From Acidimicrobiia bacterium (GTDB lineage Bacteria > Actinomycetota > Acidimicrobiia > Spongiisociales > ZC4RG35): a stretch of 42,588 nucleotides of DNA. Position 1 is the stretch's first letter. Every line of letters begins with the position of its first letter. A program made the translations under genes and the position numbers. Shown here in pieces: positions 1-42,588 of the stretch. The notes beneath the pieces are model-generated. The model did not search any database. It saw only the letters and a list, made by a program, of their open reading frames with translations, and had not been told where the DNA came from. The DNA lies in assembly GCA_025937235.1 (NCBI GenBank), contig JAICRU010000019.1, forward strand, positions 1-42,588. The letters are read 5' to 3'.

Positions 1-786
1 CCAGCATTCGATCCAGTTGTGGGGGCCACAGTTGGCTACCGCCGCCCTCACCCGCGGCTCGAAGGCAGCCGCCCGGCAGGCGTAGTAGCCCCCCAGGCTG
101 GCGCCGATCAAGCCGACTCGGGAGGTGTCGATCCGGGAATGCGCCTCGAGAGCGTCGATGGCCGCGCCGACCGCCACCTCGTAGTCGTGTCTGATGGGGA
201 GCCTCGTGCTGATCTCCCCTTGACCGGGCCCATCAAGGCTGAGCACGGCCAAGCCCCGGCGGAGCAGGGCCCCGCGTCCACCATGACGCTGCTCCTTGGT
301 CGAGTCGAGCCCGGGCAAGAAGAACACGACCGGCACCGGCTCCTCCCCAGCCGGCACGCTGAGCAGACCAACCAGGTCTGCCTCGGGGAAGGGGATGGAG
401 ATCTTCTCGACCTTTGGCTCCATGTGGGGAAGTGCCCGGTCATGGGTCTCGACCATCTTCGCCAGGCCATGGAGGTGGGCCTCCTCGTCGTCCACCGAGA
501 GGAAATATGAGAGGTGGTATGACTTCGAGGCATTGATGAACGATCCGACGGCCGAGATGTGCCGCCGCTCCTCCAACGCCCTCGTCCCCATCTCCTCGTG
601 TGCTCTTGCCGTCTCCATCCAAGCCGGGCCCCAGTCGGACCAGGTCTGGACGCGTTCCAGCGTCCCGGTCAGGTCTCCGAGCGGGATCCCGCTGTGGAGG
701 AACCTGGCCGCCCAGATATCCAGCACCTCCTGGACCACGGGGTCGGGATGGTGGAGTGTCCGGGTGAGAGCAGGGTCGACCCTCAT
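1..786 (-). CDS. Alpha/beta hydrolase, FrsA/pseudooxynicotine-hydrolase-like (3' end cut by window)
   Basis: The frame is open from ATG at 786 to the window edge, giving 262 residues without a stop. A helical N-terminal region (about residues 1-125) precedes an alpha/beta hydrolase core. The core shows a strand-rich stretch ending LPGLDS, then LSLDGPGQGE near residue 183, and the nucleophile elbow GASLGG with Ser230. This cap-plus-core order resembles the family of 2,6-dihydroxypseudooxynicotine hydrolase and related esterases. The acid and His of the triad lie beyond the edge. The start codon overlaps the stop of the upstream oxidoreductase by one base (TGATG), so it is probably translationally coupled as the last visible gene of a five-gene operon. 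The substrate cannot be told. Confidence 0.82.
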   Translation of the reverse strand, partial: MRVDPALTRTLHHPDPVVQEVLDIWAARFLHSGIPLGDLTGTLERVQTWSDWGPAWMETARAHEEMGTRALEERRHISAVGSFINASKSYHLSYFLSVDDEEAHLHGLAKMVETHDRALPHMEPKVEKISIPFPEADLVGLLSVPAGEEPVPVVFFLPGLDSTKEQRHGGRGALLRRGLAVLSLDGPGQGEISTRLPIRHDYEVAVGAAIDALEAHSRIDTSRVGLIGASLGGYYACRAAAFEPRVRAAVANCGPHNWIECW

Positions 787-37484: not shown

Positions 37485-38048
37485 ATGCGGCTCGGGATCG
37501 ACCTCGATGGGGTGGTGGCGGACTTCACCAAAGGGTGGGTCGACTTCTACAACCGGGACTTCGGAACCGAGTTGAAGCCGGAGCAGGTCGTCACGTGGAA
37601 CGGAGTGACCGAGATCACTCACTTCGAGAGGATGTCGGAGTTCTGGCGATGGAGCTCAGACCTGGACGGCCGATCCCTGTTCTGGCATCTCGAGACCTTC
37701 CCCGGGGCGATCGACGCCCTGCACCAGCTGGCTCACGACGGCCACGAGATCGTGATCCTCACCATGAAGCCGAGATTCGCCGTGGATGACACTCATGAAT
37801 GGATTGCTCGCCACGGAATCCCCTATAAGGAGGTGCACATCCTCGAGGACAAATGGAAGGTGGACTGCGACGTCTACCTCGACGACGGGCCGCACATTCT
37901 CGCCGACCTGGTGGCCCATCGCCCGGACCGTCTCGTCTGCCGTTATGTCAGGCCATGGAATCGCCCGCTGGCAGGCGCGGTGGACGTGACGAGCTTCGAC
38001 GAGTTTCGCGACCTCGTGCAACGGGTGGAACCGAAGCCCGCCCCCTGA
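37485..38048 (+). CDS. 5'(3')-deoxyribonucleotidase-like HAD hydrolase (NT5C family)
   Basis: The 187-residue protein starts at MRLGIDLDGVVADF, with the HAD nucleophile Asp6 and Asp8. Motif II is VILTMKPR near residue 100, and the acidic motif is VDCDVYLDDGPHI, with the Lys before it in EDKWKVD. The cap with WVDFYNRDFG and the length fit NT5C-type nucleotidases, which dephosphorylate (deoxy)nucleoside monophosphates. The longer upstream frame is antisense-like and not coding. Substrate range is not visible. Confidence 0.82.
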   Translation: MRLGIDLDGVVADFTKGWVDFYNRDFGTELKPEQVVTWNGVTEITHFERMSEFWRWSSDLDGRSLFWHLETFPGAIDALHQLAHDGHEIVILTMKPRFAVDDTHEWIARHGIPYKEVHILEDKWKVDCDVYLDDGPHILADLVAHRPDRLVCRYVRPWNRPLAGAVDVTSFDEFRDLVQRVEPKPAP

Positions 38049-38106
38049 TTAGGGTCGGGCAGGCGACCCGGGGTCTGTCGCCAAGAGGATACGAATGGAG
38101 CGAAGA

Positions 38107-39207
38107 ATGAAGAGAAGAGCCTTCTGGGCTTGTCTTCTCGTGATGGCCCTGATCGCCGCGGCATGTGGCGGCGACGGAGGTGGGGGCACCACGACAACAG
38201 CGGCCGCGGAGGAGGAGACCACCACCTCTGCCGCTGCGGAGGAAACCACCACGTCGGCGGCCGCGGAGGCCGAGCTGGGGTCAGCAGACCGACCCATCCA
38301 GGTGCTGTTCGTCCCCTCCGTGGACGCCCAGGTGATCACCACGGGTGGTGAGATCATGGACCAGGCGCTCACCGACGCCACCGGCCTCGAGTTCGAGGTC
38401 AGCGTCCCGACGTCCTATGCGGCCACCATCGAGGAGATGTGCGCCAACCCGGCCGACACCATGGGGTTCATCCCCGCCTTCGGCTATGTGCTGGCCTCGC
38501 AACTGTGCCAGGTGGACGTGGCGTTCAAGGCGGTTCGGTTCGGCTGGGGCGTGTACTGGGCGCAGTTCCTGGTGGCACGCGATAGTGAGATCCAATCGCT
38601 CGAGGACCTGGAAGGCCTGAGTTGGGCCTATCCGGACCCGGGATCGACCTCGGGATTCCTGTTCCCCTCGGTGAGCCTCGATGAAGCGGGGGTCACACCC
38701 GGTGAGACCGTGGAGGCTGGTGGGCATCCGCAGGCGGCCCTGGCCGTCTACAACGGTGAGGTCGACTTCGGCACCACGTTCTTCAGCCCGCCGCTGCTTC
38801 CCGAGGGCGAATGGCAGATTGGCGACCCGCCGGAGATTCCAGACGAGGCCATCGAAAGCTGCGCCCCCACCGACGAAGGTGAGCTCTGGTGCGGTGACTA
38901 TCGGGTGCTCGACGCTCGGGCCAGCGCGATCGAAGAGGCTCCCGACATCATGCAGCAGGTACGGATCCTGGATATCACCGCAGAGATCCCCAACGACACC
39001 TTGTCGTTCGGGCCTGACTTCCCCGCCGACCTGCGGACACAAATCCAAGACGCACTCGTTGCCTTTGCCGAGACGCCGGAGTGGGCGGAGTCGATCGGTC
39101 ACCAGGACTTCTACGCCTGGGACGGGATCGACCCTGCCACCGACGCCGAATACGACATCGTCCGCACGGTGGTCGAGGAGCAGGGCATTACGCTGGAAGA
39201 CCTGTAG
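38107..39207 (+). CDS. phnD: Phosphate/phosphite/phosphonate ABC transporter substrate-binding lipoprotein
   Basis: The 366-residue protein starts at MKRRAFWACL; a GGAG ribosome site lies within the alternative four-codon extension from ATG 38095. A signal peptide ends in LIAAACGG, with lipid-modified Cys20. A Thr/Ala/Glu linker follows with a nine-residue repeat (AAEETTTSA), typical of actinobacterial surface lipoproteins. The PhnD-like binding core (about 60-366) includes PTSYAATIEEM, GFIPAFGYVLA, GLSWAYPDPGSTSGFLFP and VDFGTTFFSPP. It captures an oxyanion such as phosphate, phosphite or phosphonate for the PhnC-PhnE importer. Confidence 0.9.
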   Translation: MKRRAFWACLLVMALIAAACGGDGGGGTTTTAAAEEETTTSAAAEETTTSAAAEAELGSADRPIQVLFVPSVDAQVITTGGEIMDQALTDATGLEFEVSVPTSYAATIEEMCANPADTMGFIPAFGYVLASQLCQVDVAFKAVRFGWGVYWAQFLVARDSEIQSLEDLEGLSWAYPDPGSTSGFLFPSVSLDEAGVTPGETVEAGGHPQAALAVYNGEVDFGTTFFSPPLLPEGEWQIGDPPEIPDEAIESCAPTDEGELWCGDYRVLDARASAIEEAPDIMQQVRILDITAEIPNDTLSFGPDFPADLRTQIQDALVAFAETPEWAESIGHQDFYAWDGIDPATDAEYDIVRTVVEEQGITLEDL

Positions 39208-39260: not shown

Positions 39261-40019
39261 ATGACAATGCTCCGGGTTGAGAACCTGACAAAGGTCTACG
39301 ACGACGGCACCGTTGCCCTCAAGGACGTTTCATTCGAAGTCCCCGAAGGCCAGTTCCTCGCCGTCATCGGGCTCTCCGGGTCGGGCAAGTCGACACTCCT
39401 CAGATGCATCAACCGGTTGATCGACCCCACCGAAGGCCGCATCTTGTGGAAAGGCGAGGACATCACCGCGGCCAATCACGAAGACCTGCGCAACATCCGC
39501 AGGCGGATCGGGATGGTGTTTCAGAACTTCAATCTGGTCCATCGCTCCAAGGTGATCACCAACGTCTTGGCCGGACGGCTGGGATACACCAGCCCTGCTC
39601 TTTCGGTGGTCAACCGATTCTCCAGGAAGGACCGGGAGCAAGCCATGGTGTCTCTCGAGCGGGTCGGTCTCGCCGAGAAGGCCAACAACAGGTCCGAGGA
39701 GCTGAGCGGAGGACAGCAACAGCGAGTGGGCATCGCCAGGGCCATGGTGCAAGACCCGGAGATGATTCTCGCCGACGAGCCGGTGGCCAGTCTCGACCCC
39801 GTGCTCGCCCACTCCATCATGCAATACCTGGAGGCGATCAACCATGACGACGGGGTCACCGTGCTGTGCAGTCTCCACTTCCTCGACCTGGTCCACCGAT
39901 ACGGACAACGGGTGATCGCCCTCAACGAGGGTCGCAAGGTGTTCGAAGGGCTGCCCTCGGAGATCGACGACGAGATGTTCAAGGAGATCTACGGCAGGGA
40001 GGCGGAGCGGGTTGGCTGA
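39261..40019 (+). CDS. phnC: Phosphonate/phosphate-type ABC transporter ATP-binding protein
   Basis: The 252-residue ATPase has Walker A GLSGSGKST (37-45), Q-loop MVFQNFNL, signature LSGGQ (148-152) with a full LSGGQQQRVGIARA, and Walker B MILADEP (168-174). The PhnC-type stretch RSKVITNVLAGRLG confirms the subfamily. It may start at ATG 39261 or at ATG 39267. It powers the importer with PhnD and PhnE; its 3' end overlaps the phnE start by eight bases. A stem-loop lies directly upstream. Confidence 0.93.
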   Translation: MTMLRVENLTKVYDDGTVALKDVSFEVPEGQFLAVIGLSGSGKSTLLRCINRLIDPTEGRILWKGEDITAANHEDLRNIRRRIGMVFQNFNLVHRSKVITNVLAGRLGYTSPALSVVNRFSRKDREQAMVSLERVGLAEKANNRSEELSGGQQQRVGIARAMVQDPEMILADEPVASLDPVLAHSIMQYLEAINHDDGVTVLCSLHFLDLVHRYGQRVIALNEGRKVFEGLPSEIDDEMFKEIYGREAERVG

Positions 40020-41940
40020 TTTGAAGACCACCCCGGCGAAGACCCCGCCACGGGAAGAGGTGAAGCCGAAGAAGCTGCGGCCCGTTCGACGCAGCCTGTG
40101 GATGGCAATCGGGCTCCTGGCTGGATTCGTGATCTATGCCTACGGGTTTCAGGTCGTCAACGTCAACTTGGACACCATCGGTGATCCGGTCCGTCAGGGG
40201 CGGTTCGCCAACATCATCCGGGCCCTGGGCTCACCCGATCTCCTCACCTATGAGACGGTCGCCACCAATGTCGACATCGACTTCGCCATGCCCTGTCCCG
40301 CCGATGGCTTCACTGCAGCCGCCTCTGAGGGCGGAGCGGCGACGATCTCGATCGATCCGCCCTGCGCCGATTCCAGGGGCATCGTCACGGTCTCGGGTGA
40401 GGGTTTCGGGTCCAACGAGCCGATCAACATCTTTTTCGTCCCGCCCAACGGGATAGAGCTACGCGTTGCGCAGGTTCGAACCAACGCCGATGGAGTTTTC
40501 AGCACCGAAGCCCAGCTGCCAAACCGTCCCGATGAGCAGGTGCAGACCATCCGGGCCAAGACCCGGGAACGGGTGGGAAGCATCTTCAACCCCGTCTACG
40601 TCCCCACTGGGCAGACCAACTCCGAAACCGGAGAGGAGATTGTGTTGCGGTCTCCGCGCTGGTCTGCGAACGCCGAGGCGACCTGGAGGGGGATCATCCA
40701 GACGATCTTCCTCGCGCTCCTCGCGACCACGGTGGGCACGATCATCGCCATGCCCCTTTCCTTCCTGGCGGCACGAAACCTGATGAGCGATGTCAGGATC
40801 CCGGTCCTCAACGTCGGGTTGGCGATCGTCGCCCTGCCCGTGGGGGCCGTGCTGGGTTATGCCGCCGCGTCGGGAGGAGGCGGGATCGTGGACCGGTTGC
40901 CGGGCTCGGCCCTGCTCTTGGGAGCAGTCACCATGGTTCTGGTGTGGCTCGGCTTCCGCGCTCTACGATTCGCGGTGCCCCTCCCCGATACCGAGCGCCC
41001 TCGCTGGCTCAGGGTTGGCGCGGGTCTAGCCGCGGCGGCCGCCTTCCTGCTCGCCTCACAGTCCGCCGTTCGCTTCATGGAGATCGGAGGGGCCCAGGCT
41101 GCCTCAGTCCTGGGACCACTGGCCTTCCTGGGTACCTTCGTGCAGCGCCTGGGCGAGATCATGGCTCTCGTCTTCGGTGTTCTCGCCGGTCTCGCCGCTG
41201 CCGTTGCCCTGGCGATCTTCGCCAGCAAACTCGCCTACGCCATCGCGAAGAACGTCGGCCCGGGTATGAATCAGGTGCTCTCTGTCGTTGCGGTCGGTCT
41301 CGCCGGCGCGGCGATAGCGGTGGGAATCGGTCAGGCCATCGCCTGGATGTATCAAATCATCGACACGACGGCCACAGTCGTGATACCTGCGGCGATCGGC
41401 GCCGTGCTCGGGGTGGGCTTGGGAGTGTGGGGCGCAATGCGCGGACAGCTCGGTGCGGGCCTCGGCATCTACTACATCTTCCGCACGTTCTTCAACACCT
41501 TGAGGTCGATCGAGGCCCTCATCCTGGCCCTCGTCTTCGTGGTCTGGGTCGGATTGGGTGCCTTTGCCGGAACCCTGGCGCTGGCCCTGCACACCATCGC
41601 CGCCAACGCCAAGCTCTACTCGGAGCAGGTGGAAAGCATCAGCTCCGGCCCGTTGGAGGCGGTTCGGGCCACCGGCGCCACCCGGCTGCAGACGGTGATC
41701 TATGCGGTGGTGCCGCAGATCGTGGCCCCGTTCATCGCCTTCACCATGTACCGCTGGGACATCAACGTGCGCATGTCGACGATCATCGGCTTCGTCGGCG
41801 GCGGTGGCATCGGGTTGATCCTCCAACAGAACATCAACCAGCTCAACTATCGGGGCGCCGCCGCTCAGATCCTGGCGATCGCCATCGTGGTGGCTGCCAT
41901 GGACTACGTCTCCAGCCGCCTCCGGGAGAGGTACGTGTGA
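40012..41940 (+). CDS. phnE: PhnE-type ABC transporter permease with two large insertions
   Basis: The product has 642 residues from TTG 40012, against about 270 in ordinary PhnE. A first helix (about 30-50) leads into an external beta-rich domain (about 90-200). This contains Cys95, Cys118 and an Ig/IPT-like strand pattern (GIVTVSGEGFGSNEPINIFF). The PhnE N-part follows (TIIAMPLSFLAARNL, about 243-257). A stretch of six or seven extra hydrophobic segments (about 262-484) then interrupts it. The PhnE C-part resumes at FRTFFNTLRSIEALILALVF and contains the EAA coupling loop GPLEAVRATGATRLQ (546-560). No frameshift is seen. Confidence 0.88.
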   Translation: MADLKTTPAKTPPREEVKPKKLRPVRRSLWMAIGLLAGFVIYAYGFQVVNVNLDTIGDPVRQGRFANIIRALGSPDLLTYETVATNVDIDFAMPCPADGFTAAASEGGAATISIDPPCADSRGIVTVSGEGFGSNEPINIFFVPPNGIELRVAQVRTNADGVFSTEAQLPNRPDEQVQTIRAKTRERVGSIFNPVYVPTGQTNSETGEEIVLRSPRWSANAEATWRGIIQTIFLALLATTVGTIIAMPLSFLAARNLMSDVRIPVLNVGLAIVALPVGAVLGYAAASGGGGIVDRLPGSALLLGAVTMVLVWLGFRALRFAVPLPDTERPRWLRVGAGLAAAAAFLLASQSAVRFMEIGGAQAASVLGPLAFLGTFVQRLGEIMALVFGVLAGLAAAVALAIFASKLAYAIAKNVGPGMNQVLSVVAVGLAGAAIAVGIGQAIAWMYQIIDTTATVVIPAAIGAVLGVGLGVWGAMRGQLGAGLGIYYIFRTFFNTLRSIEALILALVFVVWVGLGAFAGTLALALHTIAANAKLYSEQVESISSGPLEAVRATGATRLQTVIYAVVPQIVAPFIAFTMYRWDINVRMSTIIGFVGGGGIGLILQQNINQLNYRGAAAQILAIAIVVAAMDYVSSRLRERYV

Positions 41941-42001: not shown

Positions 42002-42588
42002 GTGCTGAGACGGGCCCGGCTCGAACGCGAGCGTCTCGAGCACGAATTGTTGGCGCCAGAAGCCACCAAGGCCGACGGGTCGGCCGGCCGCGCCGAAGAT
42101 GAGGAACCGGACGAGTTCCGTACCGCCTTCGAGCGTGACCGGGACCGCATCGTGCACACCAAGGCGTTTCGCCGCCTCAAGCACAAGACCCAGGTCTTCC
42201 TCAACCCCGACGGCGACCACTTCGTCACCCGAATGACCCATACCATCCAGGTGAATCAGGTGGGTCGGGCCATGGCCCGCGCCCTCGGGCTCAACGAGGA
42301 CCTGACCGAGGCGATCTGCCTGGGTCACGACGTCGGACATTCCCCTTTCGGGCATACCGGCGAGGAGGCGCTCAGCCCTCTGGTCGAGGGCGGCAGCTGG
42401 CTGCATTCGGCCCATGGGGTGCGCACCCTCTCCCTGATCGAGCCGCAAAACCTCAGCGATGAGGTGCTCGACGGGATACGGGCCCACTCGTGGGGGGGGG
42501 TCCCGCCACCCCGGACGCCGGAAGGGCAGCACAGCCGGGTGGCCGACGGGCTCGCCAACCACACCCACGAAGGGGCCGATGCGCGACG
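42002..42588 (+). CDS. dgt: Deoxyguanosinetriphosphate triphosphohydrolase-like HD protein (3' end cut by window)
   Basis: The frame from GTG 42002 is open to the window edge (195 residues). After a charged N-terminus it shows FRTAFERDRDRIVHTKAFRRLKHKTQVF, the typical Dgt opening, cited here by its key parts: DRDR, KAFRRL and KTQVF. The HD metal site is assembled from MTHTIQVNQVGR and LGHDVGHSPFGHTGEEAL. Dgt cleaves dGTP or other dNTPs to the nucleoside and triphosphate. The last 20 residues (VADGLANHTHEG) deviate from the family's VADRxAYxNHD pattern just after a run of nine G. A sequencing slip or real divergence is possible there. Confidence 0.87.
   Translation, partial: MLRRARLERERLEHELLAPEATKADGSAGRAEDEEPDEFRTAFERDRDRIVHTKAFRRLKHKTQVFLNPDGDHFVTRMTHTIQVNQVGRAMARALGLNEDLTEAICLGHDVGHSPFGHTGEEALSPLVEGGSWLHSAHGVRTLSLIEPQNLSDEVLDGIRAHSWGGVPPPRTPEGQHSRVADGLANHTHEGADAR

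Follow-up and report, generated by a model that had tools for sequence, protein, structure and literature searches.

The PhnDCE system of M. smegmatis imports phosphate, not phosphonate or phosphite (PMC7866108), and the PhnCDE system of E. coli also imports phosphate (PMC6469041). The PhnE permease of such systems (TIGR01097, a profile of 252 positions) is usually about 250–300 amino acids long, a length that lies outside the curated definition of the family. MalF, a type I permease of the maltose importer, has a large extracytoplasmic loop domain, and its P2 region (residues 91–271) contacts MalE (PMC3150292); MalF is compared with PhnE here as an analogue. MetI of the methionine importer (3tui) shares its core fold with the PhnE described here and has neither of the two insertions reported below. 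A sequence search for a solved PhnE structure found none; its hits were limited to MetI-type permeases and amino-acid permeases, with E 3e-4 or weaker.

The window, which is the whole 42,588 nucleotide stretch of Acidimicrobiia DNA that was analysed, contained a phnD-phnC-phnE operon with the following features:

38095..39207, + strand: phnD, substrate-binding lipoprotein (PF12974, E 3.5e-42; TIGR01098)
39261..40019, + strand: phnC, ATPase subunit (TIGR02315, 333.1 bits, cut-off 266.1)
39998..40002, + strand: GGAGG, likely ribosome-binding site, 9 bases 5′ of the phnE TTG start (by reading of the sequence)
40012..41940, + strand: phnE, enlarged permease of 642 aa (TIGR01097; full-length homologues)

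PhnD scored 148.7 bits against TIGR01098 (NCBIfam cut-off 112.05) and had a lipobox, LIAAAC, with its Cys codon at 38164–38166, followed by a long Thr/Glu/Ala-rich linker; a lipobox-like motif was found in 64 of 69 homologous PhnD proteins. The TTG start of phnE overlapped the phnC stop by 8 bases. The sequence-only reading had described the gene at 40012–41940 as an oversized PhnE, and this ORF is the PhnE permease of the operon: the intact protein matched TIGR01097 in two stretches with a total of 233.3 bits (curated cut-off 216.7), its gene stood with those of PhnC and PhnD, and all 74 of the 74 PhnE homologues matched the same family. With PhnE of the described PhnCDE and PhnDCE systems it shared the core sequence, an EAA-type coupling helix and an operon with PhnC and PhnD. 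It differed from them in having insertions of ~140 and ~225 residues, so that its 642 aa, roughly 2.5-fold the ordinary number, put it outside the usual PhnE range. Automatic annotation labelled all variants as plain PhnE, and the enlarged form is therefore easily overlooked.

The structure of PhnE alone was predicted with AlphaFold2 (AF2) from a 74-row alignment. The model had a mean pLDDT of 80.6, with values mostly >90 in the external domain and in the six helices and ~55–77 in the core, and both additions foreseen from the sequence were seen in it. The order of elements was TM1 (25–49), an external beta domain (~77–214), TM2 (219–252), six helices (265–477) and the core helices (482–641). 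The fold and topology below are those predicted:

40084..40158, + strand: TM1, residues 25–49, running in to out (AF2 helix, hydropathy, charge bias)
40240..40659, + strand: insertion 1, predicted external Ig-like domain, residues ~77–216 (AF2 strands, pLDDT mostly above 85)
40294..40296, + strand: Cys95, invariant, likely disulfide partner (74 sequences)
40363..40365, + strand: Cys118, invariant, likely disulfide partner (74 sequences)
40666..40767, + strand: core helix 1 (TM2, residues 219–252), running into SFLAARNL (profile match)
40786..41460, + strand: insertion 2, predicted six-helix membrane bundle, residues 259–483 (AF2, length conservation, loop charges)
41461..41937, + strand: remaining PhnE core, residues 484–642 (PF00528, 54.7 bits over residues 468–637; MetI-like fold)
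41644..41676, + strand: EAA-type coupling helix, residues 545–555 (short helix at 545–553 in the AF2 model)

By sequence, this PhnE is a canonical permease with two separate insertions, the first placed in an extracytoplasmic loop and the second in cytoplasmic loop 1, because the protein with both removed gave a single end-to-end match to its family. Excision of residues 77–216 and 259–483 in silico left 277 aa that matched TIGR01097 in one stretch (profile positions 2–251 of 252) at 257.6 bits, a higher score than the 233.3 bits of the intact protein. The two insertions thus account for the excess length. TM1 was the counterpart of the usual N-terminal PhnE helix. Profile comparison with the first core helix of normal PhnE proteins of the same order gave a probability of 97.9% for TM2 and 35.8% for TM8; the alternative that TM8 is core helix 1 was therefore rejected. 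The core aligned with MetI (3tui_A; Z 15.8, rmsd 3.9, 202 residues, over model positions 216..642), and 202 residues is approximately the length of the core if the insert is not counted. In the coupling helix, which is expected to contact PhnC, E549, A550 and G555 were invariant among the 74 sequences. Together the MetI-like core and the coupling helix point to the fold of a type I ABC importer permease, as predicted at a core pLDDT of only 55–77; at the same core pLDDT (~55–77), the packing of the insert on the core and the PhnE dimer are putative. Both ends of insertion 2 were predicted to be cytoplasmic. The K+R content per sequence was 2.0–4.1 on the predicted inside loops (N-terminus and insert) and 0.6–0.9 on the outside loops of the insert, a distribution that agrees with the predicted topology. 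A type I importer permease can thus gain two modules in separate loops with its core retained.

An external Ig-like domain with two Cys had been proposed from the sequence, and the prediction agreed with this. AF2 gave a beta-sandwich (pLDDT mostly above 85–90) which was Ig-like; residues 108–186 aligned with the neocarzinostatin-type Ig folds 2cbq and 2cbm (Z 8.5–8.6, rmsd 1.7–2.0, 78–79 residues, 15% identity), from which the PhnE version differs in being membrane-anchored and in having no chromophore context. C95 and C118 were invariant in the 74 PhnE homologues, which suggests that they form a disulfide; apart from this pair and a few other positions, the sequence of the domain varied freely. 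Sequence support for the Ig assignment was weak: the domain had no Pfam match over cut-off and, in the window, no match to TIG, the best being one homologue at 13.5 bits (cut-off 20.9), so that an IPT/TIG-type Ig assignment failed at the sequence level, and four homologues matched the NCBIfam chromoprotein model with E down to 5e-4. Some Acidimicrobiia PhnE proteins of ~780–850 aa (L072, L095, L101, L103, L104, L106–L109 and L111) had 100–155 extra ectodomain residues after query position 208, for which a Pfam match over cut-off was not found.

The hydrophobic segments noted earlier between the two PhnE halves were also present by both hydropathy and AF2; the motifs that mark the halves, AMPLSFLAARNL (residues 246–257) and FRTFFNTLRSIEALILALVF (residues 490–509), were 232 residues apart. 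These extra membrane segments can be described more exactly as a discrete six-helix bundle placed after core helix 1, which was present in all the enlarged PhnE proteins observed, among them subunits that have no ectodomain. The insert was 225–231 aa long in 72 of the 74 sequences and 214 and 235 aa in the other two. Predicted alone, it had a pLDDT of 93.0 and a pTM of 0.81. Among solved structures Foldseek returned no match under E 1, and the best VIA-align match was Z 8.1 over 92 residues; this may be merely a common helix arrangement, and novelty of the fold is not thereby established. An hhalign comparison of the insert with the PhnE core showed no relation (probability 0.1%), and the two halves of the insert were not clear repeats of each other (8.9%). 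Other PhnE proteins of the same order (L112–L118) have a multi-helix extension at the N terminus; kinship of the insert with this extension was considered and rejected, the probability being 1.0%. The core of MalF is not known to have a six-helix insert in its first cytoplasmic loop. A bigger membrane insert of ~300 residues was present in L128 and L129, from the class of Levilinea, and insert size is thus variable.

Two Anaerolineae-class loci each encoded two adjacent enlarged phnE genes, of 636 and 507 aa in L123 (starting at 1375 and 3386) and of 559 and 518 aa in L124 (minus strand, starting at 1076 and 2756). Both permeases of each pair had the insert and only one of each pair had the ectodomain, so the two modules are separable. 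Enlarged PhnE proteins with both modules, with the insert only and with a longer ectodomain form a natural series for testing extra permease domains. Other arrangements were also observed. Six loci of the same order (L112, L113, L114, L116, L117 and L118) had a phnE pair in which one member carried a long N-terminal hydrophobic extension (~440 aa in total) and the other was of normal length. In L115 (minus strand), a 592-aa ORF consisted of two PhnE-type cores fused head to tail. A further 642-aa ORF, at 1084–3012 of L002 (genome G000, contig C10), had two permease cores and adjoined a ProV-type ATPase; by reading of its sequence it is probably a fused ProW pair, and its assignment as a phosphate (Pst) permease was dropped in favour of a ProV/ProW-like pair.

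In named genomes of Acidimicrobiia and of Anaerolineae/Caldilineae-type Chloroflexota, 80 loci encoded full-length homologues, most of them with 39–60% identity. The gene order phnD-phnC-phnE was kept across the two phyla wherever contigs were long enough. An assembly artefact, which the sequence-only reading had named as the finding that would count against it, was ruled out by the presence of homologues in many independent assemblies, including that of a same-genus genome with a PhnE at 60% identity. A normal-size homologue with identical flanks had been named likewise; no second, normal-size PhnE was found in the window's own genome (96.7% complete). A search across the Actinobacteria detected the insert profile in three of 296 sampled Actinomycetota, all three from the window's order, where 65 of 138 genomes had it. 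It was also detected in 6 of 201 Chloroflexota and, with some weak matches among them, in 18 of 199 genomes from the class of Levilinea. In these samples the enlarged PhnE occurs in one order of Acidimicrobiia and in Chloroflexota and is not Actinobacteria-wide. A tree built from the C-terminal core placed every Acidimicrobiia sequence in a single supported group (99/93) next to many branches of Chloroflexota, a pattern that, depending on the position of the root, may reflect one transfer out of Chloroflexota. Descriptions of an enlarged PhnE or of its two insertions were not found in the literature searched, which covered few subscription journals.

The reading that we favour, with a probability of roughly 0.6, is that PhnDCE is a type I importer with an enlarged homodimeric PhnE, in which the Ig-like domain lies at the docking surface and the helix bundle forms a belt. 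PhnD, PhnC and PhnE would together import inorganic phosphate, phosphite or small phosphonates. Lipid-anchored PhnD would capture the anion outside the cell and dock on the PhnE homodimer, and two PhnC ATPases would power alternating access through the coupling helices. The Ig-like domain, part of extracytoplasmic loop 1, would sit beside the docking surface and hold or guide PhnD, as MalF P2 does with MalE. The six-helix bundle, inserted between core helices 1 and 2, would pack outside the pore; that it is a structural belt on the pore exterior is our guess. The homodimer is inferred because the operon has a single permease gene, whereas MalF pairs with MalG. Transport and its substrate are likewise deduced from the genes present. 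The C-P lyase gene phnJ was not found in the window's genome or its relatives by a model that detected it in an E. coli control, and Pst-type permeases were present in the window's genome. Given these findings and the phosphate-importing PhnDCE and PhnCDE already described, the likeliest cargo is probably phosphate or phosphite, C-P lyase being the only phosphonate route covered.

Docking of PhnD by the Ig-like domain, as part of this reading, has about an even chance. It is favoured by the analogy to MalF P2, by the presence of the ectodomain on one subunit only in the paired permeases and by co-divergence with PhnD, and it is sensible for a lipoprotein such as this PhnD, whose linker is long. 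Co-divergence was assessed in 66 homologues, the window itself being left out as its PhnD is incomplete in locus L001. Given PhnC, core and insert, the partial correlation between ectodomain and PhnD was 0.42, and that between insert and PhnD 0.10; the values were 0.27 and 0.22 with the long-ectodomain clade removed and 0.33 and 0.23 in Chloroflexota alone, all of them in a kind of test that kinship inflates. Another possibility is that both insertions are purely structural, stabilising the homodimer or suiting the cell wall and membrane of these bacteria, and that the docking site of PhnD is the usual surface of the core, as it is where PhnE has the normal build. We regard this as possible but distinctly less probable than the favoured reading. 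It agrees with the occurrence of the insert on every enlarged PhnE, with the lack of a special link between insert and PhnD in the partial correlations, and with the freedom of the ectodomain sequence to vary; it agrees less well with an ectodomain that follows PhnD a little more closely than the insert and that is kept on only one subunit of the paired systems. Should the Ig-like domain indeed dock PhnD, bacteria that lack a classical periplasm would have an independent equivalent of MalF P2.

The suggestion from the sequence that the permease has its own extracytoplasmic sensor or docking domain thus holds for the domain itself, a predicted beta-sandwich, and two weak lines of evidence make docking plausible; no evidence was found for a sensor. 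Ig-like folds are commonly protein-binding or structural. It is doubtful that the ectodomain and bundle form a built-in control module which gates the pore in response to the occupancy of PhnD or to substrate outside; regulation of this type was not found described for PhnDCE importers, and the bundle would then be a membrane domain with no clear match among solved structures. It is improbable, too, that the external domain is a sensor of substrate or of loaded PhnD which uses the extra helices to gate or report transport: the ectodomain is connected to the insert through core helix 1, which gives such a signal a path on paper, but the domain is Ig-like in fold, and neither a ligand site nor a signalling domain nor a partner was found. 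Least of all do we expect PhnE to be a pseudo-dimer in one chain, made of two permease halves that were fused or partly duplicated. TM8 weakly resembles core helix 1 and TIGR01097 matches PhnE in two stretches, but there is a single EAA-type core and one PF00528 stretch only, the insert is neither related to the core nor built of clear repeats, and the true PhnE-PhnE fusion in L115 looks different. A fused double permease of the FbpB or ProW-fusion type was rejected in the same way, two cores not being present and the insert being unrelated to the core.

The genes on either side of the operon were also compared. In Acidimicrobiia one neighbour of the operon encodes a 5′(3′)-deoxyribonucleotidase (NT5C, PF06941) and the other an HD-domain protein that by reading resembles a dGTPase, the flanking genes of the window being at 37488–38048 and 42002–42588. 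These flanks were seen in none of the Chloroflexota loci, and they recurred in nearly all long-enough loci of the window's order.
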